Source: Symbiodinium sp. CCMP2592
Taxonomy: Eukaryota; Sar; Dinophyceae; Suessiales; Symbiodiniaceae
Direction of reading: 5' to 3'
Length of the DNA stretch: 64,000 bases
NCBI GenBank assembly: GCA_905221615.1
Contig: CAJNDT010000321.1
Coordinates: 124,001 to 188,000 of the forward strand
Shown here: positions 15,876 to 37,000 of the stretch, piece after piece
How positions within the stretch are numbered: the stretch's first letter is position 1
Layout: each line of letters starts with the position of its first letter
The notes under the pieces: model-generated
The model's input: the letters and a program-made list of their open reading frames with translations, nothing else
Told to the model about the DNA's origin: nothing
The model's database searches: none
Made by a program: the position numbers and the translations under genes

Positions 15876-16125
15876 TGTGGAGAACGGAAACCCAAAGGGG
15901 CAGCACGCACCCTCGTTTTCCGTCCAAGCAGAAAGTCCAACGACCGTGACAGGTCGAACGTCCGCCCAGGACGGGCTGCGCGCAATTGCGTCGCGGCAAC
16001 GAGAAGCTACCAACGACACACTGCCGTGCTCACTTGAGCCAAAAATGTTATGAATACGAATTACAGAAGAGCATGCATAAAAGCATACAGCACAACAGCC
16101 AGCCCGCAGACTATGTACAGTTACA
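15876..16125 (-). repeat. 5' LTR (250 bp) of the - strand element, first copy
   Basis: Same 250-bp TG...CA unit as 3218-3467, at the upstream (high-coordinate) end of the element. Directly followed by the ACCC target duplication and the resumed copia frame. Confidence 0.9.
16033..16047 (-). promoter_or_regulatory. Spliced-leader-like stretch inside the LTR
   Basis: On the element strand this reads CATTTTTGGCTCAAG. The dinoflagellate spliced leader ends CCATTTTGGCTCAAG, so 14 of 15 bases match with one extra T. It is in the sense direction and followed by TGAG. It also occurs at 3375-3389, 20050-20064 and 32727-32741. Candidate SL relic, transcription start or trans-splice-related signal. Confidence 0.6.
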
Positions 16126-17331: not shown

Positions 17332-19914
17332 CGGTGAAGGAATGGCGCGACATGCGTGTGCATGCGCCTAATGCACCTTGGACCGCATTGTACGAGGCCT
17401 GGTTCCGTCACTATGCTTGCCGCCAGGGCAACCTGTACATGCAGGACCAACGCAACACCTCCCTGACGGGATGGTCAGCCCTCATCCTTCAGCACATTAA
17501 GGCTTTGGGTATCCTCGGGTGGGGTGTTAACTTCGAGAATGCCATCAATAAGACGGCAATGTATGACATTTGCCATAGGGTCCACATTCTGTCAGAGGGT
17601 AGCGGTACCTTCCCACTGTTTCCTGCGAGCTCAGCTCTCTTGGACGGGCTCTACAGCCCAGCCTTGGGCAGGATTTCCGCGCCCCCCACGGCGGAAGCCG
17701 GTGGTTTCGACGGCACCGACATTCTTGTGGCCGGGGACTCGTCCTTGGCATTGTGCTGGATGCAAGGAAAACGGTGTGTGAAGAAAACCACTATCTTCCC
17801 GATGATGCAGGACATAGTCCGCGCGAACCCAGAGTTCGGGGAAGTCACATGCTTGATGGAGTGGGGCAAAGGTCTCGACAAGATCGTCGACGTGATCGAG
17901 ACCCACCTTGCCTCCGCTCCCCCGGAAGGGGTAGAGCTTGTGGTTTCATGGGCCGGCAACGATGTGTACGGTAACTACGGTTACCTTGGCTACACTTGGC
18001 ACTTGACGAGCCAGTGGGTCAAAAGGCCGCAGCGCGAGCTGGACGAGATCGAGCATTGGCCCGCAAAGCAGCGGCTGATGGTCGAGAAGAGCGTCCGCCG
18101 CCTTATCGAGCTGCGGAAGCACACTCGTATCAGAGGCCTGACGGTTCTCTTGGGAGATGACAACGGCCGCTTTTACAACCTGCCCTACGAGTATGATGAA
18201 GAAATGGGCAAGTACGCCCGGCAGATGCAGAGTGAAGGCGTGTGCGTCGTTGATCCATCAAGCCTCCTGATGAGGACCACGCGTCCCGACGGGTTCCACA
18301 TCGAGGTCACAGACCCGAATGTGACTGCTTCGTTGCAGTGGTGGCATGCGCTCATCAGAGCCATCTCCACCGACCGAATCATCACTCGCCGGAAGGCTGA
18401 GTTCGTTGCCAATCAGAGAAGTATTGTGTTTCGCAATCACTTCGAGCTTGGGAAGGCCGAGAAAACGCTCACGGTGCCGCCTGCAAGTCAGCGCATCCTC
18501 GAGCCGTTGGACCATGCACCCGAGCTCCCGGCGGAAGCCAGGGAAGAGGATGAGCAGATCGTTCTCGACCACCCTCTTCTGATGATGATGCCTGAGCCGG
18601 TGGATGATCTTGAGCTCAAGCCGGAAGGCTCTGAAGAGGTGACACAGGTTGAACATGTACTGTTTAGCCGTGATGTCGGGTCAGAGCTGCCTCTCGACCT
18701 TGTCGCCGTCGACCCTGAGGCGCAAGAGGACTTTGCCTTTATGGTTGCACGAGATGTCATCAATACCACCAATGTGCTTATCCCAGATGACGATGCCATT
18801 GAGAGGGAAGTCAATGACGGCATCCCCACGGTGTGGGACGAAACCCCAGAGGTTCCGGCATCGGAAGATGACCGCAGTCTTCCCAAAGGCACAGTCGGGT
18901 ACTCGCAGGCACTTCGCCGAATCGGATCGACGCCCAAGTCGAAACCCGATCCTGCCAAGCACAGGAGAATCTCGGAGCCAGCCGAGACCGACGATGAAGA
19001 GGATGTCGTGATGGACCTGGATCCTGACGACACTGCTCAGCCGTCGGAAGACGCTGCTGGTGATTTCGAGCCGTTCTTCGAATGGTGGGGCTATGAGGAC
19101 ATCCCCGATTTTGCCCCGAGCCATCGCTACATGACGGATGGCAAGCGGCGAGCATTGAGCAATGCCATGAGCTTTTTCCTTCGTGGCTTCGCGAATAGTG
19201 CAGAGTCACAGGCACAACGGCGGCCACCGCCCATGATGACCTTCGACCCCGCAACGCGGGAGGTCGAATGGGACCACTTCAAAGAGCAATTGGGCAAGCA
19301 GTGGCGCGGTCTCCGGTCGGAAGACGTCATGGAAGTCGTGAAGTACGGTAACCGCGACAAAGATGACAGTGGACGCTTTGAGTTGCGCGTCCTCCACTTC
19401 ATCGACCACACTGAGATTCATGGAATCCGTGCATTCCAGGGGCACTGCCGCGATCTCATCTCTGACGAGACTGATCTTGTGGATATGCACAGTGACAGCT
19501 ATGCTTTGTGTGACGACTACCGTCCCACCATGCACACGCGTCCTCCTGTGGGAGTCACTGGCCACATCCACAACGACTGGGTCAGAATGCATCCGATCGG
19601 GTACCATGCAACGTATTGGAGCAATTTTTCCAATATTGTTAGCACCGGTCTCATCCCAGGCGGTGTCACCCTCGGCGGAAGCACGGGGAGAGCCTTCACC
19701 ATGATGGCTTGCCTCCCTCAGTGGGAAAGGCCGAACAACGCAGGCCTGCGACCTGGCGCTGAGGTTGAGTTCGCTATCGACCTCCAACTCGCGTGCCTGG
19801 AAGGGTGTCGCATTCTCCTGACAAAGAACAATGTTCTGCAGACCCCCGATTGGTTGTCCAATTATGTTTGCTTACGATCGCAGAACCGGGAAACCCGTAT
19901 GGTTTAACCGCTCG
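17136..19914 (+). pseudogene. SGNH hydrolase-KptA region of the copia element, first copy, truncated at the gap
   Basis: Near-identical to 33830-36616. It encodes the SGNH hydrolase and most of the KptA/Tpt1-like domain. Near 19861 eight bases are missing relative to the second copy, shifting the frame, and the sequence then runs into the N gap. The last ~200 bp before the gap hold several more substitutions than the rest. This is typical of a poorly resolved contig end or of a chimera with a related copy. See the second copy for domain details. Confidence 0.8.
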
Positions 19915-20014
19915 NNNNNNNNNNNNNNNNNNNNNNNNNNNNNNNNNNNNNNNNNNNNNNNNNNNNNNNNNNNNNNNNNNNNNNNNNNNNNNNNNNNNNN
20001 NNNNNNNNNNNNNN
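19915..20014. other. Scaffold gap of exactly 100 N
   Basis: A run of 100 N, the conventional placeholder for a gap of unknown size. The left flank is inside the copia KptA domain. The right flank starts inside the LTR at a point matching position 3340. Confidence 0.98.
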
Positions 20015-20142
20015 AACGAGAAGCTACCAACGACACACTGCCGTGCTCACTTGAGCCAAAAATGTTATGAATACGAATTACAGAAGAGCATGCATAAAAG
20101 CATACAGCACACCAGCCAGCCCGCAGACTATGTACAGTTACA
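20015..20142 (-). repeat. Partial 3' LTR, second copy
   Basis: Matches 3340-3467. The outer 122 bp of the LTR and any upstream copia sequence are lost in the gap. One A-to-C difference from the other LTRs. Confidence 0.88.
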
Positions 20143-20544
20143 TTCGCCCCTCAGCCGAGAGCACGATAGAGCCGTAGGATTCCGCGGGCGGCCGGAGGCC
20201 GTAAAACTGACCTACAGACCCTGCCCTCCTACAAACCCTTCGCACTCAGCACAAGACCTTCGTTTTTCACGGCCTGTGCTGCACGAGGCTCTGGTTTCCT
20301 ACTGTACACAGCCTGCGCCGCACGGCGGCCACAGGGCTGGTGAAACGAGCAGCTGAAGCTGCGGCGTTACTCCACGCGCTTCGGGAGCACTACCGTGCCT
20401 CCCTAGCCGCTCCCGTCAAAGACCTGTAGAGCGGATACGCCACACTGTCGTCTCATCGGAAAGCAGCTAGGTGCTGCGACCAAAACTGAAGTTGCCACAG
20501 GTGGCTAGAAGGGCGGAGCGCAGTCCGCGACTTCTAGTCCACGG
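20143..20544 (-). other. Element 3' untranslated region, second copy
   Basis: Matches 3468-3869 with a few substitutions. No gene seen. Confidence 0.6.
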
Positions 20545-22101
20545 TCACTGCGGCTCCACGTTGGGTTGCGCGGCGGGCTGATGGACATTTGAGGGTTTTG
20601 CCCGCCCGCGGTGGTTCCGCTGAGGTGCTTCGAACTCCTCGAGCTTCAGCGCCTTGGACCACTCGGTGCCAAACGAATCTAGCCATTTTTGGCTAAATTC
20701 AGAGGTCAGCACACTGGCGACCGCGATGCCGACCTCCGCGTTGGCCCGTGAACTAGCACTAAAGTTTAGGCTTCCTATCACGGCGCTAACTGTGGAGTCC
20801 GGCCTCGTCACGAGCACCGTCTTGGCGTGGTGGATGCCCGCGAGGCCTGCGCCGATGCTCACGTCCGTGCGGTTCTCGGCGGCGTAAGCCGCCTTGACCG
20901 AGGTGCCCTTGACGACACGGACCTGGACGCCAGCCGCCCCTAGCTCCTTGAGGGACTGCAGCTGGAGCTTGGTCCGGCTCGTCTGCGAGTTGTCGGCAAG
21001 CACGTGGGCTCGGGCGCCTCGCTCCAGCGAGGACACGAGGGCTCCAACCAAAGGCTTGCTATCGAAGCTGTAGGCTCGCACGTAAACGTGGTCCCCATGC
21101 CCAGCGTCCGATAGCATCGTTTGTACCACAGCGTGATACTCCGGAAGGGTCAGAAACTTGACCCCGGATCGCTCGAAGCCGTCAGGGATCGGGAAGTCTC
21201 TGACACGCCGTGCCTGGCTCGACATGGGAGCTGTCGGAGCCGGAGACGCCGCAGAGGTACCCTGGCGGGAAGCCTCCGCTGCAGGCGTCTTCGGAACAGT
21301 CTCTGTCGGAGGCGCCGACACTGTGGCCACCTCGTGGCGGCCTCTGAGCTTGGTAAAGCCGGCAAGGCAACCCTCGGACGGGTTCCCGACATTCCGAGCT
21401 CTTTCAGAGAGCGATCTCGCTTTCGACACCATGCCGGCAAGGCACCCCTGTTCCAGGGCCGGCGCGCCGAGGATCGCACGGGCGCGTCTAGTCGCGGCCG
21501 GGGCGACGGACAGCGTTGGTGCAGCGCTCGCGCCTGTCATGGCCACGAGTTGCCCCGCAGCTTCAACAGCGCGTTCTATGTGACCACAACGTCCCTCGTT
21601 GAGGAATGCCTTGCAGTCGCAGCCTGCGCCGTCCGCGCCCGACCCGACCTTCACAAGAACCCTGTGTGATCCGGCCTTAGTCTTTGATGCAACCTCAAAG
21701 ACAGCCTCCCGGCCTTCGAGCGACACCAGAACAGCATTCCCAAAGGGGTTACCGTTCATGGCGTGCATTAGCCGGTTAGTGGAGACACGTCCGGCCCACC
21801 ACAGCACTACGGCCGCGAACGTCCACAGTAGGACGACGGCCGTCAAGCCAACCACGCGGACACCCCGAACGAGGATACCAGAGGATTCCTCGATGAGGTC
21901 CTCCGCAGCAGTGGCAACTGCAGTGAGGCTCACGTGTGCCACTTCTCTGGCACCGCGCTCAACAGTGAAGAGGGTAGGCGCCAGCGCAGCGGCCACCAAA
22001 CCCGTCTTCCATCCAATGTTGCCCGTTGTGGCGTGGGCTGCGCGATTGCGCGCTCTCCTGGAGAGAGCCCAGCTGGAGACCGCAGCGCCTATCGAGCGCA
22101 C
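20545..22101 (-). CDS. SWIM zinc-finger plus PLD-type nuclease (element ORF2, second copy)
   Basis: Full-length 518-residue counterpart of 3870-5426 with the same architecture: hydrophobic helix near 83-103, SWIM CxC-x8-CxH at 161-174, PLD-type H-A-K at 425-427. The amino-acid differences I saw are A107S, A145S, D232A, A308S, G403V and Q508H. None touches the SWIM or H-A-K residues. It overlaps the polyprotein end (22089) by 13 bp as in the first copy. The ORF has stayed open in both copies, but because they are near-identical this is weak evidence for selection. Confidence 0.8.
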   Translation of the reverse strand: MRSIGAAVSSWALSRRARNRAAHATTGNIGWKTGLVAAALAPTLFTVERGAREVAHVSLTAVATAAEDLIEESSGILVRGVRVVGLTAVVLLWTFAAVVLWWAGRVSTNRLMHAMNGNPFGNAVLVSLEGREAVFEVASKTKAGSHRVLVKVGSGADGAGCDCKAFLNEGRCGHIERAVEAAGQLVAMTGASAAPTLSVAPAATRRARAILGAPALEQGCLAGMVSKARSLSERARNVGNPSEGCLAGFTKLRGRHEVATVSAPPTETVPKTPAAEASRQGTSAASPAPTAPMSSQARRVRDFPIPDGFERSGVKFLTLPEYHAVVQTMLSDAGHGDHVYVRAYSFDSKPLVGALVSSLERGARAHVLADNSQTSRTKLQLQSLKELGAAGVQVRVVKGTSVKAAYAAENRTDVSIGAGLAGIHHAKTVLVTRPDSTVSAVIGSLNFSASSRANAEVGIAVASVLTSEFSQKWLDSFGTEWSKALKLEEFEAPQRNHRGRAKPSNVHQPAAQPNVEPQ

Positions 22102-25100
22102 GCATCCGTGAGGAAACGGCCGTCAACGACCCTACCTGTACGAACCGTCAGGTCGTCGACATAGGCCACCCATTCCTTAGTGAACCTAAGCCTTCGATTG
22201 CGACCCGGCGCATACGCGCGGTCAACGACGTAGTTAAAATCGTCGGGACCATTGACAGGCCCGAAGGTAAGCCCAATAGGGAGGTACTTACCGCTACGCG
22301 CAACAATGGCAAGAACCTCCCTGGCACGCGTCGTGTTGCGGATCTGATTGAACCCGGAAACCGCATCAACGAAGCTATACCAGACTGATCCTACCGCTGC
22401 AGCGAGCACATCCGTGCTCCGCCGGCAGTAGTAAGTGGATCTCTTCACCCTGGCGTTTACCCTGCGGTAATCTACCACCAAGCGGCGTTTCCTCGCCCGC
22501 TTGTGGGAAGGCATCTCCTTCGTAGGGAAAGGGGCCGAACCCCAGGCCGAAGGGCCTCGCACAAGCTGCCCTCTCTGGACCTCCTCCTCAAGCCGGTCAT
22601 CAACCCACTGCGCCGCTTCCCCGCGGAGCGCATGGGGCTGAGAGCTGACCGGAGGCCCCGTAGGGACGCAGTCGTGCGCAAACTTCCGGACCGTGGTACG
22701 CGCCGTACCTTCGACCCAGAATGCAGCGGCCTTCCGGCCCACCGTCTCCTTAATGGCTGCGAGATCAGCCTCGGTGAGCCCCGGACGGTTCTCCGTAGGG
22801 CCCAACCTGAGGCCTTCAATGACCTGCGCCTTATACTCTGGCGTACGGCGGGGATCGGCAGCCACAGCCTGGCCTGCCAACGCATAGACCTCCAGGTCCG
22901 CGAAGACACCATCCCAATCCTTGGCGTCTGCCTTCGACCGCCAGTGAGCATCCATCTTCCTGGAGAACTCCAGAACTTCAGCCTCCATCTTCGCTCTCTC
23001 TTGAGGGGAGAGGTCCTCGCCAGACTTAACGTCCGGCAACGGTACCTCCGGAGCGGAAGGCTTCGCAGGCTCAGCCGGCGGCTGGCCGCTCACTGAGCAA
23101 ATGCTGTCGTAGCAAGGGGGCTGGTCGCCCCTCAGACCAGCATCCGCCAGGCAACGGCACAAGGCCGGAGCGAGCACCCTCGAAGAGGTCCGGGCCTTCG
23201 CGTGCTGATGGGCTACCCTGCCCAAAGCGTCAGGCTTTGCACAGCGAACGCAAACCGAATCCATCTTGAAGTTGGAAAGACAGATCAGCGCTCCTTCCGA
23301 ATGCTTAGAACCCCTAGGAACTGATCCCAAGAGCTGACATCGATCAGCTCGGCCGAAAGCCCAAGGGAACTTCGGTTCCGAAAGCGTCCCAAACACGGGA
23401 GCCCACCCCTGGGCCTCCCAAGGCTCCCAAAGTCCTTCCTGATCTGAGATAGTAACAAGCATCTGGCGCCCCTTCTCGGCCACCATTGCTCCCCACCTAC
23501 TGACCAGGGAGAGGAACTCCTTGGGGATACCCTTACCGGATAGGCCCACAACGAGGCACTTGGGGTCGAGCGTATCGACCAGAAGGCTCAGGGCTTGCCG
23601 GTCCTCCTCTGAGGAGAAGTCCCAGCGGATCCCGTAGGAGCTGGCTCCTTGAACCGCAGCAGGAGGGCTACGCAGGCCTCCTGCCTTACTGACCTGAGTA
23701 AGCGAGTGCTCCGACACCGCTACTTCGACAAGGTCCACGTCCATACCCTCTAGGTGATCTCTGATCCACCCCTGGACCGCGGCACAGGAGCTACCTCTAC
23801 CGACGATCAAGGAGGGCGCGGGAGCCTCAGCAAGGAGCTCCTTCAACGCAGCAGGGACGTCAATCGGGGAAGCTGCCACACCCACTCGGTCCGGCACGGA
23901 CTCTTGCAAGGAGTAACCGGCCTTATCGAGCTTCCGGGCAGAAGACGCAGCGAGAACCCCATCCCTACTAAGATCCACCTTGGAGATAATCTCCTTCACG
24001 GTGATGGACTCTATGGCCTGTCTCGTCCCTTCGCGGGTCAGAGAACCGCCTTCGTCCAAAAACGCAAGGTGCCACCGGACTCTGAGTCCTGAGGCGTCGG
24101 GGATGTACCGGTGGACGCCCACCTGTGCCCTGGCTTCGTCCACTTGCGTGACCTTGCCTAGGCGACAGGTTTTAGGGCCCACTCGGGCGCCATGGTACGC
24201 AACATGGTCACCAATACGCAACACGAAGTTGCGGCCCCGGCGCTTGACAGTAAACTCGACCTGCTTAGCTTCACCGGCCGCTTGCTGACCCAATGAAGGC
24301 GGCTGATGCTCTGGCTCGTCGAAAAACTCTATGGGGTCACTCTTCTCGGGCACCTCCGCATCTTCCGGCACGAGCACTACATCCTCCGCGTGGGCTTCAC
24401 ATTGCCGGCCTGGCGCCTCACCAGGGCCACCAGGAACAAGTTCGAGTTGCAGCCTATGGCCTTTAACCGCCACTATCCTCCAAGGGCCGGTCAGACCAGG
24501 CTTCCAAGGGACACGCCCCGCCCCCTCTGGCCGGGGCTTGGGGGAATTCCAGACAACTCTGTCCCCCACGCGGAGCTCAACTGTGCGACGCGACCGATTA
24601 GCAAGTCGGGCACGCGCCTCACTGCTCGCGTCCCAATGGCGCCGCACAGCGGCCGCCAAGTCGGAAAACTGCTTGAACTGGGAACGGGCCCAGTCCGTGA
24701 TGGGCTCGAATTGGAGGGCCTCGCGGAGAACGTCCTTCTCCAACGGCAAGGCGAGGCTCCAGGACCGTTCCAGGTCCCTGGGGGTGTACCCATGCGCCCC
24801 CGGGGTATTATCCAACACATACTCGGCGACCATGAGCCATTCGCTCCAGTTCTCCATGGAGCCGCCGATATGCCGGATGAGGTTACCCAGAACCTTCTGG
24901 ACCTCTTGGTGGACCCTCTCGTTGGACCCCATCTCACAAGGCCTGAGAGCCATACTGAACTGCTGAGTTGTCCCAAGCATGGAGCACAACTCCAGCATCA
25001 TGGCATTCTTGAACTCAGTGCCTCGATCAGATCGGATGAGGCGGGGCAGGGTGCGTGATCTCAGCACGCACCGCAGAAATGCCCTACGCACATCCGTATG

Positions 25101-28100
25101 CGTAAGTGTCTTCATGGGTTCCAGAAGCACTGCGTGGCTAAGGCAATCAAAGTACGTAATACTGTATCGGAAGCCATCGCGGTCCTCCCGATTAGGACCC
25201 TCGCAGTCGACGGAAACTTCCTGCCAACACGCTTCCGCGAGACATTTGACAGGTTTCGCTTCGACCTTCGTGGCTCGGGCCCTGCCCTTAACACACGCCA
25301 GGCATTTGGACACCCACAACTTAACGTCTGGTTCCATTCCTGGCCACCAGACGGCCCTTTCAAGGAGACGGAACGTGACCTCCGCCGAACGGTGCGCCCC
25401 CAGGAGGCCACAATGCACAGTCATGTAGCATGACTTCCGCCACGTGACGCCATTGGGCCCGGCGATACCGTTCGGGACGACCGGGACGACCACCGTCTGG
25501 CCAGTCTTGATGGTCACTTCCCTCTCCAAGACTCCGTCCGAGCCAAGCTTGAAAGGGGCTTCCGGCTTCTTGACCGAAGCCGTAAGGGACGGATCTCTCC
25601 GTTGAGCCTCGTGCCAAGCCGTGCGAAGAGCTGGCGTGACGCCGAACTCGCAGAGCCCGGCGCCATCCCTGGCCGCCAAGGCCAGCTTTTCTCTCTGACT
25701 CTCCGGGCTGTCCTTGTCCGACAGCACAGGGAAAGAACCGAGGCTGAGGGGACCAGAACCCCCGGACGCGGACACCTTAACCCGGCAAGTCCGCACGGAA
25801 TGTGACTTGACACAAAAGGGCCGGTGGGAGGAGTACAACTCCACAACCACCCGTGGGGCCTTGGTAGCGGACCCCACAAAAGCCAGGGTCCTGCTAAGCT
25901 CTCCTTCCTTGACCTCGATCTTCTTCGAGAGCTGGACGGCCATCCAATGGCCTTCCTCTCCTGAACACTGGAAGGCGGCGATGACAGGCGAAGCCCTGAG
26001 CGACTTCCGATGCCCAAGGGACTGGATGCCGTCCCCATCATTCCAACCTTCCACGCGGTCCACCTCTCCCTTGAGACCAAGGAGACACGCAAAGGATTCC
26101 CGGAGGCGAACTTCGCCCTCCTGGAGATTCCATATGCGTTCGCACTCAGAATTAACCACATGCCTGTGGCTGTGCCAGTTGGGCTCGACAGCCCAGTTGA
26201 GCGAGCTCGGCCCGCTCAGGCAGGACGGGAAGGCCTGGTGCCCTTGCAGGACTTCACCAGAGGCGTTCACGACCCAGGAACTCCACAAAGAAGGGCCGTC
26301 CTTCTCGCACCCCTCGACTGGAAGCTCCAGGTCGCCCCCAGTCCAGACCCTCGCCTTAATCCTGCCGTACACCGTGGGCAGGAGCCCTTCCACGGGCTTT
26401 TGGAGGAAACCTTTGGCCCATGCTCGGATGAGGTCCGTATCAATGTCCACCGAACCATCAGCAAGGCTGGCGGACAAGAGGGCGTTCACCTCGAGTGACA
26501 CGCTCGGGTCGGCAGACTCCGGGCCCTCAGCGGCCTCCTTTTCGGCTTGGGCCTCAGCAACCTCCAGAGCTGTTTCCTCCGCCTCCTGCCGGATGCACGA
26601 AGGACACCTTGAAAATAGGTATGTCCTCTTTCCGCAGGCGCAGACTCCTTCGTGATCCCAAAGCTCCCGAGAGGGCGCGTCAACGAGACCACGCAAGGAA
26701 ACATCCGCGACTTTGGAGATCCCTTCTAGCTTCAGGGACGAAAGGACCTCAGCGGAAGCGGCAATCTTGCCCACTATCCCATATCCTGGTATAGGGGGCT
26801 CGGGAAACTCACGCCCCATCTCTGGGCACGCCTCAGCCACCTCAGCATGAGTAGAGTGCGCCTTCCAGACCTTAGGCTTAAGGCTCCAGATACCCTTGAT
26901 CCCTGCCCAAGCGAGGCCCGCGACGCGGGCTTCCTTGCGCTGCAGGTTGCGAGCCTGGAGGGTGACTTCAACCACCAGCGGCCACCGCAAGGCAGCGGTG
27001 ACAACTCCTCCTTGGCCAAGTCCTACCAGAAAGGTAGGGGAAAACGCAGCGGCTTCCCGAAGTACCTTCGCACAGGACGTAAGCAGGTCGACGCGGAGCT
27101 TCTTGACCTTCTTGGGCCCGGTAAGCTTACCGGTCATACCGTCGAAGTGGGACGCCACTCCGTCATCGTCCTCAAAAGGGCCCCAGCAGCCTCTCACCGC
27201 AATGGAGTGCCCCGGGATTCCCGAGACGAAGACTTCACGGATCTCCGTGAGCGCCCTTTCCTGCTCCGTCCAAGGGGCATAATCGAAAACAATCATAACG
27301 CGGACAGGGGGACCGCCCGCGACCCCGACCGGCACCGCAGCCGCGGTCGCCGGGGCAACCTGCGTCGCGTGATCGGGAACCGCGTCTTCCCCTACTGCCC
27401 AGGGAACAGGACCGTCACCTTCGGTCCCTTCTCCAAGGTACTGGTCCAGGTCGAACCCCTTCAGCTGGCCAGTCATCCCGACCAAGTCCTTGGTCCGGGC
27501 GGCCAAGAGCTCGTCCCGACCCTTCGGGTTCCTGGAAAAGGAGTCCCCCAGCGTCGCACTGCGACCACTGAGACTCCTGATCTCAGACCCATCCATCAAG
27601 ATCTCCGCAACCCATCGAACCAGTTTCTGGTCGGAGCCGATATCAGAGGACTGCGCTCTCGTAAGATTGGCATGGTCCGTCCAACACAGGGTTCGGATAG
27701 TTCCGAAGACCTTTCGGGTTGCTCGCTTGACTTCGAGCTGTGCGAAGGCTTCTTGAATCAGCGGGGGCCAATTTTGCTGCGCAGGGGTCAGACTCTTGGA
27801 GTGAGTCATAAGAACCTTAATCCTTGAGAGGTCCCTGCTCATTTGCACCACCGAGCCCCCTACCGCAATCCCGCTGGCGTCCGCTATCTGCTCAAGCGGG
27901 CAAGAGCCATCAGCAGCCGACGCCTCATCGAAGGCCGCCAGGCTGATATGGTGGCTCATCATCTTCTTGATGGCCTTGAAAGCCTTGCAGCCGGCAGTGG
28001 TGCCTGTCCCCAGGCCACCTTCCGGAAACTCCGCTCCCGGTTTCTGCCATTGGCCCAAAACCTTAGCAGCATGGCCATATTCCGCTGGCAGATAGCCCCG

Positions 28101-31100
28101 AAGCCAGTTCGCACACCCAAGGAATTGCTGGATGTGGAGCTTTTCCTTAAGCGGCGGGAAATCCACGACCGCTTGGCATCGCTCCTCGTCGGGCGCACTC
28201 CCGTGCCGCCCGATCCGGTGCCCGAGGAGCTTACCCTCTGACACACAGATCTCAGCCTTGGCGACACCAAAGGAGAACCCAAAGAGGATGCTCTTGTCGA
28301 GGAAAGCTTCCAAAGAGACCAGGTGATCGAGAAGGTGCGGGCAAGCACCCTTGTGCCTCGCACCCATATCCTCCCGCAGCTTGTCGTAGTAGTAGTCGGA
28401 GGGAGGTTCCTCGATCATCTTCTCAATGTCGGCCGATTCCACTATGTGGTACACCGGCTCGTTCCTAGTGTCCACTCTGGAACCACTAGTGACGTCTCGG
28501 CCGTGGCTTCCTCCAAGCCCCCTCGTAGCGGAACCCGCATCCCATCCTGCCCAACGCGGCCCCGTCTTCGTCCTGAAGACCGCGAGATCGGACGTGACGG
28601 GCACGGTCGACCAGTCGACAGACTCGGGCCAAAGCCTGAGGTCCCTAGTCTGCCACAACCGCCACGGGCCGCCAGAAGACTTCAAGAGGCAAGTCTCGTA
28701 CGGAAGCCTTTCGACATCCGGCCGATTCTCCGGGTCACCTTCCTGGGGCCTGCCGCTCCAAAGGCCAGCCATTCCTCCCTTCGTCTGCCACCACTGGCCC
28801 TCAGTGGGGATGGAGGAGAGGAAGGACACGGCATCCGGATCCGTAACCACGGACTCCGTGGCCCAAGGCCCTCCTAGGACCGTGCTTACGGCGGCAAGGG
28901 CGAAAACCGCCCCAACCCTCAGGCCCTTACGCCAACCCCTGCTGTGCGAGCATGCGCCGCAGCCTTGCAGGCCACAGACGGCGGTCCTCTCGGTGGACCC
29001 GCACGCAAAGCATCCAGGGAAGGTCGAGTCTTCGGCAGTGCCTAATCCGCAGTTCCCACACGGGTCACCACTCGCGTCCGTAAAGAGGGTCTCAACCCCT
29101 CCGCATTCACACGCGGTGGTCTGCGCGAGCCCGGTCCGGACCTCGCCGACGACGGCACCCGGAGAGACAGTCGTGTCCTCTTCGGCTACCAGCAAGATCG
29201 AACCTTCCTCGGCTCCTGTGGGCCACAGCCCAGGCACTGCTTCGCAGTTGGCGGACTCTACCGGGAGGACAGCCTCCGTAAGGGAGCCATCCTGGCCTCC
29301 ACTGCCTTCCCTCTTCACAGGTGCGATGACCCCATCTCCGGCCAAGAGCTCCAGCGGGTTCTCCCCGCTGTACCGGAGCAGGTCCCTGCCTCCGGTACCC
29401 GGCTCAAAGCACAGAGCACCGTCGAGACTAGAAAGCCTGGACTCGAAGGCGTAGGCGCGGTCCTTCCGCGACCTACTGTAGTCTTCGCACCTGGGGATCT
29501 TAATCCCAAGGGTTTCCAGGGAGTGGCAGTCAGGAAGGGGCTTGAAGCCCAAGCCCTGCCGTCCCGAGCAATCCAAGGCGCGGCCGCCAAGGATGAGCCC
29601 ATGCCAATCCGAGGTTCCTTTCGCGGCTATTTTACAGCGCACGAATATCTCTGGACCCTCGCTGCAGTTGTCGGGGGAGAGCCCCTCCAGAAAGCGGACT
29701 CTCAGCACGACGGCCCCCTTCAGGGGCACCGGCTTCCCTGCAGCGATCCCATGGACGAACTCCGGATGCACCCAGCGTTCGAACTTCACGACAGGAAACC
29801 TCCGGTCCTCCGTGCCGATCCCCAAGGCAGCAGCCCGGTTGAGGATCCCACAGAGGAGTTCCTCCGTGATGTGGTTCGAGCCTGCACACCCGTCCAGCAT
29901 GCATTCCACCATGCCGTCGATGACCTGCACGACTGTTCTGTACTGGTACCCCCCGACCTCGTTCTCGCAGAGGTGCCACCAGTCCTGAGGCAGCTCGTCC
30001 AACGAGCTGAACTTCGACGACGAGCTCTTGGCAAGCGGGAAAGCGGAGGAGTTCGCCGCAACAACCGTGCCAGCGCTCCCAATCTGGATGGAGAGCGTAG
30101 CGAAGGGATTCACCATCCCGGCGCCACTCGGGGCCGCCCAGTTCGAAGGCAACGCGGCTCCCCCAGTGGCGGGAAGCGAATGGACCATGTCACAGTCCGC
30201 TCCCTTACGGCACGACCCGTTCTTCTTGAAGAAAGGGCAGATAGTCCCTGGCGGCTTCGCGCCCGCCTTGGACTTCGCCTTGGGCTTGGCCTTGGCCTTG
30301 CCTTTGGGCTGCCCTCCGGGTCCACCCTTGCCCTTGCCCTTGCCCTTCCCCGGCGTTGTCGCCAGGGTGGACGCGTCCCGCTCCTTCTTGGCCGCGAGGG
30401 CCTTTTTGCGGAGCTCCTTGTCGTGCGAGTAAGGGCACGCGTCCCCTTTTGGGCAGTTCCCGTGGTCGCGGAAATGGAAACAGATAGGCTTACCTTTTCC
30501 ATTTCCTTTCGGACCAGCGGCAAGCGTGGAAGAGGCGGCCGCCTTGGCCGCGGCCTTAGAAGCCTTGAGCTCCGTCCTCAGCTTCTCGACCTCCTTCCGC
30601 GCGGCGGACAGGGCTGGGTCTTCCGTCGAACCTGCGTACACGCTATTAGCCGTCACCCGATGCGCAGCCTCACGCTGCTCATATTCGAGGACGACCTTAT
30701 GCGCTTCTTCCCAGGTCGAAGGGCCTCGAAGCCCTGCGGATGCGCCGTCGCTAGGCCACAACCGCTTATCACCGCGGATCTCCTTCTGGAGATGTGGAGG
30801 CATCTTGCGCAAGTAGCTTAGGAAGAGCTCCCTCGCTGTCTTGCCAAGACCCACACTCTCCAGCTCCGCGATGGAGGCCTCAAACAGGGGCTCGAACTGG
30901 TGCCCTGTGAGACGGCCCTTAGTGAGGGCGACGTGCTCCGCGTCCACCCTCATCTCCTTCTCTTCTCGGCTCTCGCCGAAGACAAGGTGCCGCTGCTTGA
31001 TCCTTTCGTAAACGGCTTGGGGATTCTCAGTAACTTCCCCGGTCTTGGAGGCAGCCTTGTACACGTTAGTAAAGGTCTTAAGCCTCGAGCCGCGGCAGCG

Positions 31101-32429
31101 AGCACGAAGGGCGATGAGTTTCTCCCGGAAATTCATCCCCTTGCAGTTGTTGGCAAGGCCACAGACGTCCTCGAACTCTTCGTAGAACTGGACCACGTCC
31201 CGGATGTCGGAGCGATCGTCGGTGAGCGAGGGCCATTGGAGGTCCGTCTTCACGGTCGTGATCGACGTCTGACCTCCGCGAGACGCCAAGGCCTCCTTGA
31301 GCGCCTCGGTCTGGGCCGCCAAAGCTGCAGCGAGCTCTCCGGCTCCGCCGCTGGCGGAGTGAGGCTCGCCGGGCTTATCCTTCTTAAGCCCTTCGAGCTC
31401 TATCTCCAGAGCCGCAAGGCGGGACTTCAGGGGTGAGTCCCCCGGACCAGGTTGCGGATCCTCAGGGATCGCGAGCTGAAGGTCCACCGGGAGAGGCGCC
31501 GGTGCTCCGGACTTAGAGCCCGACTCCGCAACGGCGCCCGTCCGGGCCGCCAGGGCCGGGACAGAAGAAGGAGTGCTCCAAACCTTCTCGGGATCGCCGC
31601 TGCTCTTGCCTCCCAGGGCCAAGATCAGCTCGCCGAGGCACGAGATCTCCTTCTCGACCTCCTCTCGGTCTTCCGACCCAAGAGAAACCGCGGCAACGGT
31701 AAACCTGGTGCGCAGGGCCCGCACCATCCTGGCAGGGTGCCAGTCACCTCCCATTTTGCCGTATTCCTCGGCAAGGATGGTGGCCTTGGTAGTGATCTTC
31801 TCAAGATCCTCCACCGTGACCTCTGCCTGGTGCGCCTTCAAGGCCACAACCAGCCTTGAAACCCGCGTCAGGTAATCCGCGACCGGTTCCTGGTCGGGAC
31901 GGTAGAGCTCCCGCAGGTCCGCCTGCAGGGTCTCCGCCGTGACGGGACCACCCGTCCCAGCAGACGAGGGAGGCCCGGAACGGGCCGGGCCGCCGGCCAC
32001 CGGCGAGAGAGCAAGCGCACCAACACGGCGCGCCGTCTCGGCCACGTCCGCCGGCGCAGCGGCAGGACGCGGAGCCGGTACCCCGGCCTCCGGCAGAAGC
32101 TCTTCAGAGCTGGGGCCCGGATCGCCATCCTGAGCACCCGGGCCCGCTTCCGCAGCTGGAGCTTCCTCATCTTCCTCTTCATCTTCTTCCTCTTCCTCTT
32201 CGGCATCGAAGTTGTCGTAGAGGAATTCCATCGTCTCCTTCCACAGACGCTGTTCATCTGCTAGCGTCGTGGATCGTCCGTCCTTCTTCTTGGTGGGACG
32301 GGACCCCGTTTCCTTACGCCAACGGAGCCAGTACATAAAGGGCATCTTCTCCGGGTACTCCACTGACCCATCCTCGATGCACCTCAGCAACGTGGCTCCT
32401 TCCGGCTGACCTGCGACCTCAGCGCTCAT
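22089..32429 (-). CDS. Circularly permuted Ty3/gypsy-like Gag-Pol polyprotein, intact (3446 aa)
   Basis: Starts at ATG 32429, 140 bp inside the 5' LTR. Order by residue: acidic Pro-rich N-terminus; Gag capsid-like segment ~390-600; CCCH finger ~648-668; Gly-Lys-rich basic linker; second CCCH finger ~728-748; retropepsin-like protease with D-G-C-A-G-S near 845 and I-L-G-G-R near 945; linker with Cys-rich patches; C-terminal part of RT (~1341-1405, ending in L-G-H-R-I-G); RNase H (~1505-1600, D-A-S-G, T-D-H-A-N-L); integrase (HHCC ~2335-2380; catalytic D near 2405, D near 2465, E near 2501); a possible BAH-like segment; an unassigned domain; then the N-terminal fingers/palm of RT (~3240-3446) with V-V-D-Y-R near 3315, S-G-F-N-Q near 3355 and Y-V-D-D at 3423-3426. 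The stop TAG at 22089-22091 comes 20 residues later. RT is thus present in two halves in reversed order. The families are clear. Whether an active RT is made is not known. Confidence 0.85.
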   Translation of the reverse strand: MSAEVAGQPEGATLLRCIEDGSVEYPEKMPFMYWLRWRKETGSRPTKKKDGRSTTLADEQRLWKETMEFLYDNFDAEEEEEEDEEEDEEAPAAEAGPGAQDGDPGPSSEELLPEAGVPAPRPAAAPADVAETARRVGALALSPVAGGPARSGPPSSAGTGGPVTAETLQADLRELYRPDQEPVADYLTRVSRLVVALKAHQAEVTVEDLEKITTKATILAEEYGKMGGDWHPARMVRALRTRFTVAAVSLGSEDREEVEKEISCLGELILALGGKSSGDPEKVWSTPSSVPALAARTGAVAESGSKSGAPAPLPVDLQLAIPEDPQPGPGDSPLKSRLAALEIELEGLKKDKPGEPHSASGGAGELAAALAAQTEALKEALASRGGQTSITTVKTDLQWPSLTDDRSDIRDVVQFYEEFEDVCGLANNCKGMNFREKLIALRARCRGSRLKTFTNVYKAASKTGEVTENPQAVYERIKQRHLVFGESREEKEMRVDAEHVALTKGRLTGHQFEPLFEASIAELESVGLGKTARELFLSYLRKMPPHLQKEIRGDKRLWPSDGASAGLRGPSTWEEAHKVVLEYEQREAAHRVTANSVYAGSTEDPALSAARKEVEKLRTELKASKAAAKAAASSTLAAGPKGNGKGKPICFHFRDHGNCPKGDACPYSHDKELRKKALAAKKERDASTLATTPGKGKGKGKGGPGGQPKGKAKAKPKAKSKAGAKPPGTICPFFKKNGSCRKGADCDMVHSLPATGGAALPSNWAAPSGAGMVNPFATLSIQIGSAGTVVAANSSAFPLAKSSSSKFSSLDELPQDWWHLCENEVGGYQYRTVVQVIDGMVECMLDGCAGSNHITEELLCGILNRAAALGIGTEDRRFPVVKFERWVHPEFVHGIAAGKPVPLKGAVVLRVRFLEGLSPDNCSEGPEIFVRCKIAAKGTSDWHGLILGGRALDCSGRQGLGFKPLPDCHSLETLGIKIPRCEDYSRSRKDRAYAFESRLSSLDGALCFEPGTGGRDLLRYSGENPLELLAGDGVIAPVKREGSGGQDGSLTEAVLPVESANCEAVPGLWPTGAEEGSILLVAEEDTTVSPGAVVGEVRTGLAQTTACECGGVETLFTDASGDPCGNCGLGTAEDSTFPGCFACGSTERTAVCGLQGCGACSHSRGWRKGLRVGAVFALAAVSTVLGGPWATESVVTDPDAVSFLSSIPTEGQWWQTKGGMAGLWSGRPQEGDPENRPDVERLPYETCLLKSSGGPWRLWQTRDLRLWPESVDWSTVPVTSDLAVFRTKTGPRWAGWDAGSATRGLGGSHGRDVTSGSRVDTRNEPVYHIVESADIEKMIEEPPSDYYYDKLREDMGARHKGACPHLLDHLVSLEAFLDKSILFGFSFGVAKAEICVSEGKLLGHRIGRHGSAPDEERCQAVVDFPPLKEKLHIQQFLGCANWLRGYLPAEYGHAAKVLGQWQKPGAEFPEGGLGTGTTAGCKAFKAIKKMMSHHISLAAFDEASAADGSCPLEQIADASGIAVGGSVVQMSRDLSRIKVLMTHSKSLTPAQQNWPPLIQEAFAQLEVKRATRKVFGTIRTLCWTDHANLTRAQSSDIGSDQKLVRWVAEILMDGSEIRSLSGRSATLGDSFSRNPKGRDELLAARTKDLVGMTGQLKGFDLDQYLGEGTEGDGPVPWAVGEDAVPDHATQVAPATAAAVPVGVAGGPPVRVMIVFDYAPWTEQERALTEIREVFVSGIPGHSIAVRGCWGPFEDDDGVASHFDGMTGKLTGPKKVKKLRVDLLTSCAKVLREAAAFSPTFLVGLGQGGVVTAALRWPLVVEVTLQARNLQRKEARVAGLAWAGIKGIWSLKPKVWKAHSTHAEVAEACPEMGREFPEPPIPGYGIVGKIAASAEVLSSLKLEGISKVADVSLRGLVDAPSRELWDHEGVCACGKRTYLFSRCPSCIRQEAEETALEVAEAQAEKEAAEGPESADPSVSLEVNALLSASLADGSVDIDTDLIRAWAKGFLQKPVEGLLPTVYGRIKARVWTGGDLELPVEGCEKDGPSLWSSWVVNASGEVLQGHQAFPSCLSGPSSLNWAVEPNWHSHRHVVNSECERIWNLQEGEVRLRESFACLLGLKGEVDRVEGWNDGDGIQSLGHRKSLRASPVIAAFQCSGEEGHWMAVQLSKKIEVKEGELSRTLAFVGSATKAPRVVVELYSSHRPFCVKSHSVRTCRVKVSASGGSGPLSLGSFPVLSDKDSPESQREKLALAARDGAGLCEFGVTPALRTAWHEAQRRDPSLTASVKKPEAPFKLGSDGVLEREVTIKTGQTVVVPVVPNGIAGPNGVTWRKSCYMTVHCGLLGAHRSAEVTFRLLERAVWWPGMEPDVKLWVSKCLACVKGRARATKVEAKPVKCLAEACWQEVSVDCEGPNREDRDGFRYSITYFDCLSHAVLLEPMKTLTHTDVRRAFLRCVLRSRTLPRLIRSDRGTEFKNAMMLELCSMLGTTQQFSMALRPCEMGSNERVHQEVQKVLGNLIRHIGGSMENWSEWLMVAEYVLDNTPGAHGYTPRDLERSWSLALPLEKDVLREALQFEPITDWARSQFKQFSDLAAAVRRHWDASSEARARLANRSRRTVELRVGDRVVWNSPKPRPEGAGRVPWKPGLTGPWRIVAVKGHRLQLELVPGGPGEAPGRQCEAHAEDVVLVPEDAEVPEKSDPIEFFDEPEHQPPSLGQQAAGEAKQVEFTVKRRGRNFVLRIGDHVAYHGARVGPKTCRLGKVTQVDEARAQVGVHRYIPDASGLRVRWHLAFLDEGGSLTREGTRQAIESITVKEIISKVDLSRDGVLAASSARKLDKAGYSLQESVPDRVGVAASPIDVPAALKELLAEAPAPSLIVGRGSSCAAVQGWIRDHLEGMDVDLVEVAVSEHSLTQVSKAGGLRSPPAAVQGASSYGIRWDFSSEEDRQALSLLVDTLDPKCLVVGLSGKGIPKEFLSLVSRWGAMVAEKGRQMLVTISDQEGLWEPWEAQGWAPVFGTLSEPKFPWAFGRADRCQLLGSVPRGSKHSEGALICLSNFKMDSVCVRCAKPDALGRVAHQHAKARTSSRVLAPALCRCLADAGLRGDQPPCYDSICSVSGQPPAEPAKPSAPEVPLPDVKSGEDLSPQERAKMEAEVLEFSRKMDAHWRSKADAKDWDGVFADLEVYALAGQAVAADPRRTPEYKAQVIEGLRLGPTENRPGLTEADLAAIKETVGRKAAAFWVEGTARTTVRKFAHDCVPTGPPVSSQPHALRGEAAQWVDDRLEEEVQRGQLVRGPSAWGSAPFPTKEMPSHKRARKRRLVVDYRRVNARVKRSTYYCRRSTDVLAAAVGSVWYSFVDAVSGFNQIRNTTRAREVLAIVARSGKYLPIGLTFGPVNGPDDFNYVVDRAYAPGRNRRLRFTKEWVAYVDDLTVRTGRVVDGRFLTDACAR

Positions 32430-32569
32430 GGTCGCCTAGCGAAGGAGAGAGCCCCGTGCCACACAGGACCACGGCCTCAAGGCGCACGACAAGCGCGCCT
32501 TCGAGGCCACGTTAAAAGATTGCGGCGCAGCAGCCGCCTGGGTGGCCGTTTCCCAGAACAGCCCCCAAT
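32430..32569 (-). other. Element leader with possible primer-binding site, second copy
   Basis: Same 140 bp as 15736-15875, with TGGGGGCTGTTCTG two bases inside the LTR on the element strand. Confidence 0.5.
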
Positions 32570-32819
32570 TGTGGAGAACGGAAACCCAAAGGGGCAGCAC
32601 GCACCCTCGTTTTCCGTCCAAGCAGAAAGTCCAACGACCGTGACAGGTCGAACGTCCGCCCAGGACGGGCTGCGCGCAATTGCGTCGCGGCAACGAGAAG
32701 CTACCAACGACACACTGCCGTGCTCACTTGAGCCAAAAATGTTATGAATACGAATTACAGAAGAGCATGCATAAAAGCATACAGCACAACAGCCAGCCCG
32801 CAGACTATGTACAGTTACA
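32570..32819 (-). repeat. 5' LTR, second copy
   Basis: 250-bp TG...CA repeat corresponding to 15876-16125, followed by ACCC (32820-32823) and the resumed copia frame. It contains the spliced-leader-like stretch at 32727-32741. Confidence 0.9.
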
Positions 32820-34025
32820 ACCCAACGCCTCAATCTAGGCTGGATCTCAGAGCAGTTCAAACGAAAGCATTACGAACTTGCTTATATCAACACCTTGCTC
32901 CAAGCTGCGGATGTCCTTACAAAACCATTCACTAGTGCTGAGAAGTGGAATAGAGCACTACAGTTGATGTGTGTGGCACCGCACAAGCTGCCTGCAAGGA
33001 AATCGGCAGCGGCCACCAGCGATCCGATCGCCCGGCAGACGCCGAGGCCCGAAGCCGCATACAAAAGGATTGTGTTCGTTGTGGATTGTTCGCAGGGGAC
33101 CCATTCTGCTTGTGACGTTGATATAAGGTATAGCCCCGATACAAAGGTGATTAAGATTAGAAATTCTAGTGAGCTTGATCCTCCTGAGACTAGGAAGGCA
33201 ATCATCCAGTTAGCCAGGGATTACCACAAGGCTGGCGCCTCTGTACTTCTTTGGTTCCATCAGCGGAATCCGGGGGGTACAGACAAGGATCAGGACGAGC
33301 TCAATAGCATCATGTTCTCCAAGACTTGGGCTTCGTTTGTTGACATCGCCGATGCTCTCAAGAAGTACAAAGCGAGGTTCATCATTACGTGGCCCAGGGA
33401 CAGCGTGTTCTGGGGATGGCAGCGTGTCAAGAGGGTACTTGATGGCTATGGTTTTAGCAAAACTCACCTTAAGCCGATGATTGCAGCTGCTGACTTTAAG
33501 CCTGAAGTCATTGCCCACTACACGCTAGCCTCCAACACGAAGAGTCTTGTTGAATTCTTGAGACGAGGATTGAAGGATAGTGCCAAGAAATCAGAGTCCC
33601 AACACTACTTCAAAGGCACCCTTACTACGATTCTCAGTCGTGTTTTTAATGATCATGAACCGAAGAAATCAGAGAGAAATCAGACTCACGTTGTAGCTGT
33701 TGCGCTCAAGATTCAAGCATCCCCAACGTCCTCTCTTTCGCTTCTTCCCATTGCGAACATGTCCTCTGCCCAGAGCACTCGTGACGCTCTTGCACAGGGA
33801 ATCGCAGCCCGGGAGGGTATTCCGACTGATGAGGGGTTGCAATATATGCAACGGCAGATCGTGAGGAACGCATTCAGGCGTATCGTGCCGCACTCAAGAG
33901 TGCCGATCGCCTGGCTGACGCCATGGCCGGAGTCACCCACCTTGCTCGGCACACCGACCTTGCTGAGGTGTTTGATGAACCCGGGGCTGACGCCGACGGT
34001 GATGAGATGTTCCTTGGGATTATGA
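32820..34025 (+). CDS. Copia RNase H C-terminus and linker, second copy
   Basis: Same as 16126-17331: end of the RNase H domain followed by ~350 residues without a recognised domain. The frame overlaps the SGNH/KptA frame (open from 33830) by about 195 nt. Its copia 5' partner is not present on this side of the gap. Confidence 0.75.
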   Translation, partial: TQRLNLGWISEQFKRKHYELAYINTLLQAADVLTKPFTSAEKWNRALQLMCVAPHKLPARKSAAATSDPIARQTPRPEAAYKRIVFVVDCSQGTHSACDVDIRYSPDTKVIKIRNSSELDPPETRKAIIQLARDYHKAGASVLLWFHQRNPGGTDKDQDELNSIMFSKTWASFVDIADALKKYKARFIITWPRDSVFWGWQRVKRVLDGYGFSKTHLKPMIAAADFKPEVIAHYTLASNTKSLVEFLRRGLKDSAKKSESQHYFKGTLTTILSRVFNDHEPKKSERNQTHVVAVALKIQASPTSSLSLLPIANMSSAQSTRDALAQGIAAREGIPTDEGLQYMQRQIVRNAFRRIVPHSRVPIAWLTPWPESPTLLGTPTLLRCLMNPGLTPTVMRCSLGL

Positions 34026-37000
34026 CGGTGAAGGAATGGCGCGACATGCGTGTGCATGCGCCTAATGCACCTTGGACCGCATTGTACGAGGCCTGGTTCC
34101 GTCACTATGCTTGCCGCCAGGGCAACCTGTACATGCAGGACCAACGCAACACCTCCCTGACGGGATGGTCAGCCCTCATCCTTCAGCACATTAAGGCTTT
34201 GGGTATCCTCGGGTGGGGTGTTAACTTCGAGAATGCCATCAATAAGACGGCAATGTATGACATTTGCCATAGGGTCCACATTCTGTCAGAGGGTAGCGGT
34301 ACCTTCCCACTGTTTCCTGCGAGCTCAGCTCTCTTGGACGGGCTCTACAGCCCAGCCTTGGGCAGGATTTCCGCGCCCCCCACGGCGGAAGCCGGTGGTT
34401 TCGACGGCACCGACATTCTTGTGGCCGGGGACTCGTCCTTGGCATTGTGCTGGATGCAAGGAAAACGGTGTGTGAAGAAAACCACTATCTTCCCGATGAT
34501 GCAGGACATAGTCCGCGCGAACCCAGAGTTCGGGGAAGTCACATGCTTGATGGAGTGGGGCAAAGGTCTCGACAAGATCGTCGACGTGATCGAGACCCAC
34601 CTTGCCTCCGCTCCCCCGGAAGGGGTAGAGCTTGTGGTTTCATGGGCCGGCAACGATGTGTACGGTAACTACGGTTACCTTGGCTACACTTGGCACTTGA
34701 CGAGCCAGTGGGTCAAAAGGCCGCAGCGCGAGCTGGACGAGATCGAGCATTGGCCCGCAAAGCAGCGGCTGATGGTCGAGAAGAGCGTCCGCCGCCTTAT
34801 CGAGCTGCGGAAGCACACTCGTATCAGAGGCCTGACGGTTCTCTTGGGAGATGACAACGGCCGCTTTTACAACCTGCCCTACGAGTATGATGAAGAAATG
34901 GGCAAGTACGCCCGGCAGATGCAGAGTGAAGGCGTGTGCGTCGTTGATCCATCAAGCCTCCTGATGAGGACCACGCGTCCCGACGGGTTCCACATCGAGG
35001 TCACAGACCCGAATGTGACTGCTTCGTTGCAGTGGTGGCATGCGCTCATCAGAGCCATCTCCACCGACCGAATCATCACTCGCCGGAAGGCTGAGTTCGT
35101 TGCCAATCAGAGAAGTATTGTGTTTCGCAATCACTTCGAGCTTGGGAAGGCCGAGAAAACGCTCACGGTGCCGCCTGCAAGTCAGCGCATCCTCGAGCCG
35201 TTGGACCATGCACCCGAGCTCCCGGCGGAAGCCAGGGAAGAGGATGAGCAGATCGTTCTCGACCACCCTCTTCTGATGATGATGCCTGAGCCGGTGGATG
35301 ATCTTGAGCTCAAGCCGGAAGGCTCTGAAGAGGTGACACAGGTTGAACATGTACTGTTTAGCCGTGATGTCGGGTCAGAGCTGCCTCTCGACCTTGTCGC
35401 CGTCGACCCTGAGGCGCAAGAGGACTTTGCCTTTATGGTTGCACGAGATGTCATCAATACCACCAATGTGCTTATCCCAGATGACGATGCCATTGAGAGG
35501 GAAGTCAATGACGGCATCCCCACGGTGTGGGACGAAACCCCAGAGGTTCCGGCATCGGAAGATGACCGCAGTCTTCCCAAAGGCACAGTCGGGTACTCGC
35601 AGGCACTTCGCCGAATCGGATCGACGCCCAAGTCGAAACCCGATCCTGCCAAGCACAGGAGAATCTCGGAGCCAGCCGAGACCGACGATGAAGAGGATGT
35701 CGTGATGGACCTGGATCCTGACGACACTGCTCAGCCGTCGGAAGACGCTGCTGGTGATTTCGAGCCGTTCTTCGAATGGTGGGGCTATGAGGACATCCCC
35801 GATTTTGCCCCGAGCCATCGCTACATGACGGATGGCAAGCGGCGAGCATTGAGCAATGCCATGAGCTTTTTCCTTCGTGGTTTCGCGAATAGTGCAGAGT
35901 CACAGGCACAACGGCGGCCACCGCCCATGATGACCTTCGACCCCGCAACGCGGGAGGTCGAATGGGACCACTTCAAAGAGCAATTGGGCAAGCAGTGGCG
36001 CGGTCTCCGGTCGGAAGACGTCATGGAAGTCGTGAAGTACGGTAACCGCGACAAAGATGACAGTGGACGCTTTGAGTTGCGCGTCCTCCACTTCATCGAC
36101 CACACTGAGATTCATGGAATCCGTGCATTCCAGGGGCACTGCCGCGATCTCATCTCTGACGAGACTGATCTTGTGGATATGCACAGTGACAGCTATGCTT
36201 TGTGCGACGACTACCGTCCCACCATGCACACGCGTCCTCCTGTGGGAGTCACTGGCCACATCCACAACGACTGGGTCAGAATGCATCCGATCGGGTACCA
36301 TGCAACGTATTGGAGCAATTTTTCCAATATTGTTAGCACCGGTCTCATCCCAGGCGGTGTCACCCTCGGCGGAAGCACGGGGAGAGCCTTCACCATGATG
36401 GCTTGCCTCCCTCAGTGGGAAAGGCCAAACAACGCCGGCCTGCGACCTGGCGCTGAGGTTGAATTCGCTATCGACCTCCAGCTCGCGTGCATGGAAGGGT
36501 GTCGCATTCTCCTGACAAAGAACAATGTTCTGCAGACCCCAGATTGGTTGTCCAATCGCTACCTTATGTTTGCTTACGATCGCAGAACCGGGAAACCTGT
36601 ATGGTTTAATCGCTCGTACGAGCTCACGCGAGCTCGGGTGTCCAAAGCCCGCGATGCATATGTCAAGCGTCAGGAAATCCTGCCGGTCTTCAACCAAGAC
36701 CTCATCGAACGCGCAGCGGAAGCTGACGCTAATTGCATCATGGATTACGTTGATCTCTGTTACCCGATCCACAATGAAAATTTGGACTGGGTTGAGTTCT
36801 TGGGTATGTTCATGGACATGGAGAAGCCCTCGCACTTGCGTGAGGTTGAGCAGTTTCATGTTGATGGTCGTACCATCTGCTTTGAGCAGGGTAGTCCGCT
36901 GGAGGGAACTCCGTGCGAATGGACCTTGGATGCCCAGGTCTACTTTTCGCCAATCGGGCTGACCACCGAGCGCCCGTCGCGTGTGGAGCGCAAGCACTAC

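Follow-up and report, generated by a model that had tools for sequence, protein, structure and literature searches.

Few polymerases are as conserved or as well studied as reverse transcriptases (RTs). In LTR retrotransposons of the Ty3/Gypsy type (Metaviridae), the RT is contiguous and situated between the protease and RNase H (RH), the zinc fingers are usually of the CCHC type and the protease normally separates the RT, RH and integrase (IN) enzymes. The polymerases of permutotetraviruses and birnaviruses have motif C shifted ahead of motifs A and B, within one chain. In dinoflagellates, two kinds of retroelements with methyltransferase domains, SymbioLINE-Dnmt and SymbioDIRS-Dnmt3, have been described, and the Pol order of SymbioDIRS varies (PMC5890265). 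No description of a permuted or split RT was found among the papers listed in the full-text literature searches (titles and abstract starts, with few subscription journals and preprints covered), and within this literature the natural split and permuted arrangement reported here is undescribed.

The element and its insertion site

The window analysed here is a stretch of 64,000 nucleotides from Symbiodinium sp. CCMP2592; unless stated otherwise, the features of the element lie on the minus strand. The ORF list and the translation revealed a gag-pol ORF of 3446 codons (22089-32429) with a permuted RT. From the N- to the C-terminus, the encoded polyprotein contains zinc fingers, a protease-like domain, the C-terminal RT half (RT-C), RH, a hydrolase-like domain, IN, a methyltransferase-like domain and the N-terminal RT half (RT-N). 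The coordinates given below were confirmed by translation.

Pfam identified Gag-like CCCH zinc fingers at residues 642-754 (30168-30506) and IN at residues 2326-2560 (24750-25454), the latter with Integrase_H2C2 (2332-2382) and rve (2417-2496; 31.7 bits, slightly below the cut-off of 32.6). RH, detected by Pfam and by profile, occupies residues 1478-1649 (27483-27998), with the RT_RNaseH match at 1516-1610. By profile alignment, RT-C was located at residues 1336-1474 (28008-28424); it comprises the palm helix that follows YxDD, the primer grip and the thumb, and its LLDHL motif starts at residue 1366. RT-N, composed of fingers and palm, was placed by Pfam, profiles and translation at residues 3228-3446 (22092-22748), with YVDD at 3423-3426 (22152-22163). 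The RVT_1 match (residues 3310-3429, model positions 3-158 of 205, E = 4.4e-6) is C-terminal to both integrase matches and reaches 27 bits, slightly below the 29.6-bit cut-off. About 1,750 residues, including RH and IN, separate the two halves, and 20 residues lead from the DD of YVDD to the stop. Thus, the initial annotation was right to read RT-C directly before RH and RT-N at the far end of the ORF, with the break shortly past Y-V-D-D.

The names of three domains are our own assignments. We take the domain at residues 841-998 (29436-29909), which had no Pfam match, to be protease-like from its D-G-C-A-G-S motif. Likewise, judged by their motifs, a conserved domain at residues 1736-1879 (26793-27224) presumably resembles an alpha/beta hydrolase, and another at residues 2931-3092 (23154-23639), also without a Pfam match, presumably a cytosine methyltransferase. 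A Pfam scan of the two ORFs of the element detected no tyrosine recombinase (PF00589).

The window contains only one run of N (19915-20014, 100 N). Two stretches abutting this run on either side, 3340-19914 and 20015-36616, are 99.7% identical, flanking DNA included. Because the identity extends into the flanks and the stretches meet at the sole N run, a true tandem array was rejected, and the apparent tandem copy is probably a single locus displayed twice through an unmerged contig overlap. Most of the 30 differences between the two versions cluster at the contig ends: 15 fall in the first 2.4 kb of contig 2 and 11 in the last 0.8 kb of contig 1. In the contig-1 version, 13- and 6-base deletions upstream of RT-C break the frame into a gag-protease part of 1322 aa (11767-15735) and a pol part of 2174 aa (5414-11938). 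The latter reads RT-C, IN, RT-N, so that the permuted order is present in both versions.

The whole element is larger than the ORF. In the contig-1 version, it extends from LTR to LTR over 3218-16125; the 5' LTR (15876-16125) and the 3' LTR (3218-3467) are 250 bp each, identical at 250/250 positions and bounded by TG...CA. A 4-bp target-site duplication, ACCC, is found at 3214-3217 and 16126-16129. The contig-2 version has a 5' LTR of 250 bp with TG...CA ends (32570-32819) and 128 bp of the 3' LTR (20015-20142), which is cut off by the N gap at the contig end. A primer-binding-site-like stretch starting with TGG adjoins the 5' LTR (32550-32567) and a polypurine-tract-like stretch precedes the 3' LTR (20143-20152).

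The host site is a plus-strand ORF with a Copia-type RVT_2 domain (Pfam), pieces of which are found at 1-3291, 16201-19907 and 32895-38918. When the flanks were fused with one ACCC, the host frame was open to residue 1473, 400 codons beyond the junction; unfused, it stops at 1097. Since the LTRs are identical, ACCC is duplicated and the host frame is open once the flanks are joined, the copy is a genuine insertion, and the identity of its LTRs suggests that this insertion is recent. Elsewhere in the window, a 41-bp tandem array and several AAACCCT/TTTAGGG-like telomere-type arrays were noted (39342-39817, 43175-43318, 52037-52165 and 52329-52451).

Behind RT-N, the window copy reads ...FLTD and then passes directly into another frame, a 518-aa ORF (20545-22101) with a PLDc_2 domain (20653-21117) and, weakly matched by Pfam (E = 0.14), a SWIM-like zinc finger (21550-21816). 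Of the 23 relatives having RT-N, 13 (P0003, P0006-P0010, P0012-P0014, P0016-P0018 and P0020) carry behind it Tpt1/KptA, an RNA 2'-phosphotransferase that repairs RNA splice junctions. Twelve of these were counted with our own profile and P0013 by precomputed Pfam; the match in P0010 has an E-value of 2.5e-13. A PLD-like domain follows RT-N in 8/23 relatives, among which P0005 and P0022 give no Tpt1 match. These domains would give an LTR retrotransposon a module resembling RNA-repair machinery. The window copy, from which Tpt1 is absent, may have lost it by deletion or may derive from a reverse-transcribed spliced RNA. In the Copia-like right flank (33923-38074), a weak Tpt1/KptA match was also observed (E = 0.0012, 19.4 bits, under the 26-bit cut-off), and this RNA-repair domain may therefore be present in at least two lineages of dinoflagellate retroelements.

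The permuted order and the fit of the two halves

A set of 86 proteins was assembled from two protein searches (23 and 61 relatives) and the two window proteins. Both RT halves were found in 16 of them, namely 15 relatives and the window protein, and RT-C came first in all 16. Among the 54 proteins with more than 250 residues ahead of RT-C, none had RT-N upstream of it, and an overlooked RT-N in the stretch from protease to RT-C was thus rejected. IN precedes RT-N in 22/23 relatives of the first search, the exception being a fragment that starts past IN. As a control, a protein search that scored its best 7999 candidates was made from a piece of the most distant member, P0025, and yielded 21 ordinary Gypsy proteins. 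With the same profiles, both halves were detected in 20 of these, always in the normal order.

Three contigs from other assemblies carry relatives: L009 (NHEP01000251.1), L010 (PBSO01000020.1) and L011 (PKCL01000075.1). Both halves are present in permuted order in L010, which has a frame change within the methyltransferase-like domain, and in L011, where a single open frame of 3471 codons spans them. L009 contains IN, the methyltransferase-like domain, RT-N and Tpt1; Tpt1 also occurs in L011, that is in two of the three contigs. All three are filed as bacterial or archaeal MAGs, in which they are likely misbinned eukaryote DNA. The named relatives come from Cladocopium, Durusdinium, Effrenium and Symbiodinium, and all named members of the permuted lineage are Symbiodiniaceae. 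No relatives were found in viral contigs, and contigs L001-L008, from a genome search with PF00078, gave no match to the RT-N, RT-C, RH or IN profiles and thus offer no control for the domain order.

The initial annotation had left room for an isolated rearranged copy among relatives of normal order. No such relatives were found, and with the permuted order in 16/16 proteins and in L010 and L011, an isolated copy was rejected. At the level of sequence comparison, the permuted order was confirmed as a family trait. In addition, FastTree analysis (41 RT-N and 76 RT-C+RH rows that passed coverage filters) recovered the permuted clade as monophyletic with both halves, with a local support of 0.993 for RT-N (22 members, 19 ordinary) and 0.982 for RT-C+RH (55 members, 21 ordinary).

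Of 24 RT-N pieces, 14 entered the domain alignments, as did 11 of the 16 RT-C pieces; the resulting RT-N and RT-C+RH profiles were compared with PDB sequences. RT-N matched residues 52-220 of the Ty3 RT (4ol8; E = 1.2e-15, second in rank), and RT-C/RH matched residues 226-475 of the same chain (E = 8e-22, first in rank). The division point was the same in the MLV RT and in the caulimovirus RT 8r0s. In profile-profile alignments with 19 ordinary Gypsy RTs, RT-N corresponded to columns 1-209 and RT-C to columns 195-299 of 303; the two halves cover the RT core completely, and about 14 columns past YxDD are matched by both. Together with the LTRs, this tiling of Ty3 upholds the earlier claim that an LTR retrotransposon carries an RT that is both split and circularly permuted. 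As judged from these alignments, the position of the break is constant: it separates the YxDD hairpin from the palm helix that follows. Each half would therefore hold an incomplete palm, and the two must meet. Motif A precedes YxDD (motif C) within RT-N, and the C-A-B order is absent.

When six RT-N-bearing proteins were scanned with Pfam, RVT_1 was matched in five, and these matches broke off at position 158-165 of the 205-position model; P0025 scored above the cut-off, the other four fell under it and P0023 was unmatched. Split RTs are thus easily missed by routine domain scans such as Pfam RVT_1. AlphaFold models of the single halves had a pLDDT of 39 and a pTM of 0.33 for RT-N, and of 57 and 0.39 for RT-C+RH. 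All 11 Foldseek matches of the RT-C+RH model at E<=0.001 were RTs, but with TM-scores of about 0.3, and they are given no weight here. Such low model confidence would fit interdependent halves and, equally, shallow alignments.

Several observations bear on the maintenance of the two halves. For the 12 of 16 proteins whose coverage of both profiles exceeded 80%, the RT-N and RT-C distances were correlated with r = 0.97 (66 pairs). RT-N had the highest mean identity (55%) of seven domains compared. Between L010 and L011, the differences at codon positions 1/2/3 were.20/.11/.65 in RT-N and.25/.22/.63 in RT-C; these fractions are given instead of dN/dS because third positions are near saturation. 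The aspartates of motif A and YxDD were invariant in 14 aligned RT-N sequences, at identities down to 33%, as were the RH aspartates and one glutamate in 11 aligned RT-C+RH sequences; we take all these residues to be catalytic. In view of the codon pattern, the invariant residues and the correlated distances, both halves look to be under selection.

Possible routes to a working reverse transcriptase

The element is probably derived from Ty3/Gypsy, its RT having been split and permuted at one place, with halves that would assemble after proteolysis. The polyprotein, in the order Gag-PR-RTc-RNaseH-(hydrolase-like)-IN-(methyltransferase-like)-RTn, would be cleaved by the element's own protease; RTn and RTc-RNaseH would then join non-covalently, complete the palm and reverse-transcribe the RNA as a two-part enzyme. 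Since a protease-like domain is present in the same polyprotein, proteolysis and assembly form the simplest route. A likely consequence is that the RT would be inactive until both halves were made and released. As about 14 columns of a normal RT are still aligned by both halves, the arrangement may go back to an RT duplicated on either side of RNaseH-IN, from whose two copies complementary halves were then lost. Assembly of the halves after proteolysis had been one of two proposals in the initial annotation; it stands as the best reading of the sequence data.

We further lean towards an obligate two-piece RT, in which a catalytic subunit (fingers-palm) and a second one (thumb-connection-RNase H), encoded at either end of Pol, become active together only after proteolytic release; its lineage would have had a single origin and have diversified widely. 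If this is true, reverse transcription would be switched on by subunit assembly, and a palm built from two chains would be shown. Conserved peptide motifs were considered as cleavage sites and rejected, each being present in only part of the relatives.

Some relatives are damaged or incomplete, which speaks against this explanation: RT-N is incomplete in P0016, P0019, P0020 and P0021, and L010 is also affected. The absence of Tpt1 from the window copy and the frame change after RTn also weigh against it, and this copy may have been mobilised by others.

Next in rank after proteolysis and assembly comes a tethered fold, in which the halves are never separated and the permuted RT folds within the uncut polyprotein or a large fragment of it, the other domains being looped out. 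Both the window copy and L011 do encode the two halves in a single open frame, and the permutotetravirus RdRp has a working single-chain permuted palm (PMC4666646). However, the roughly 1,750 intervening residues would have to be accommodated with RH, IN and other domains among them, and a protease-like domain is present. We regard such a fold as unlikely.

It is improbable that the permuted RT is dead or otherwise employed and that mobility is supplied by the RT of other retrotransposons. Foreign enzymes would be at hand: the genome (1.098 Gb) has many PF00078 matches, the best 150 of 5731 candidates being all above the cut-off and all but about 6 of these 150 free of stops. The window's own element was not among these best 150 of 5731 candidates. 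The missing Tpt1 and the frame change of the window copy point in the same direction. Against this reading, the two halves are conserved, their codon pattern is that of selected sequences, and the aspartates of motif A and YxDD are invariant in the 14 aligned RT-N sequences.

About as improbable is a restoration of the RT order before translation by RNA processing, whether back-splicing, trans-splicing or splicing into the next copy. The initial annotation had proposed two phase-0 sites, a GC donor at 22103 and an AG preceding 28409, for a back-splice yielding circular RNA or for a splice into a neighbouring copy. Both sites exist in phase, and the Tpt1/KptA domain of 13/23 relatives would suit such a route. 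However, what looks like a neighbouring copy is probably the same locus assembled twice, which leaves a splice into it without support, and the relatives are open, with conserved residues, on either side of both donor and acceptor. Furthermore, the distant proteins P0023-P0025 stop 11-23 residues past the second D of YxDD. At the position of the donor, the three relatives with DNA have TC, GA and GA, so that GC is found in 0/3. Since GA donors occur in dinoflagellates, those of the relatives could still serve, and this comparison, which covers the donor site only and three relatives, is not decisive.

Finally, an artefact of assembly or gene prediction is scarcely credible: the window does contain a run of N and, probably, contigs left unmerged where they overlap, but the same order is found in both contig versions, in 15 other proteins and in L010 and L011, so that misassembly was rejected as its source and is already refuted at family level by the other assemblies.

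Short direct repeats (about 25-50 nt) were observed in the inter-domain linkers of L011 (841-889, 2566-2614, 3482-3506, 4349-4390, 7458-7501, 9011-9051 and 10320-10360) and, as a different family, of L010 (3941, 4891, 7039 and 8148); the window copy has no such linker repeats. Those of L011 are read in two different frames and were rejected as peptide signals. In L011, where they flank the RT-N cassette, they could promote module shuffling by template switching.

Comparison with known systems

With Ty3/Gypsy elements, the window element shares LTRs with TG...CA ends, a 4-bp target-site duplication, a protease-like domain and related Gypsy-type RT, RH and IN. It differs from them in that a contiguous RT between protease and RH is absent: the RT is broken past YxDD and its N-terminal half is placed behind IN. 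Extra domains are also present, and the zinc fingers of the window copy are of the CCCH type. A departure from the PR-RT-RH-IN order is also seen in three ordinary Gypsy-type proteins with IN ahead of RT (P0093, P0104 and P0106), which we liken to gmr1-like elements; their RT is, however, contiguous.

The methyltransferase-bearing dinoflagellate retroelements are of other types, SymbioLINE-Dnmt being a LINE and SymbioDIRS-Dnmt3 a DIRS element with a tyrosine recombinase, and a split RT is undescribed in the available portion of their report (PMC5890265). Unlike SymbioDIRS-Dnmt3, a type with A-B-A-B repeats, the window element carries LTRs in direct orientation and an integrase of the rve type, and its Pfam matches include no tyrosine recombinase.

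The arrangement opens the folding limits of right-hand polymerases to testing and hints at a control of reverse transcription through assembly. With the permutotetravirus and birnavirus polymerases, it has in common a natural permutation within a right-hand polymerase (PMC4666646). In contrast to these polymerases, the window element keeps motif A ahead of motif C, its break lies past motif C, and RH and IN intervene between the two halves.
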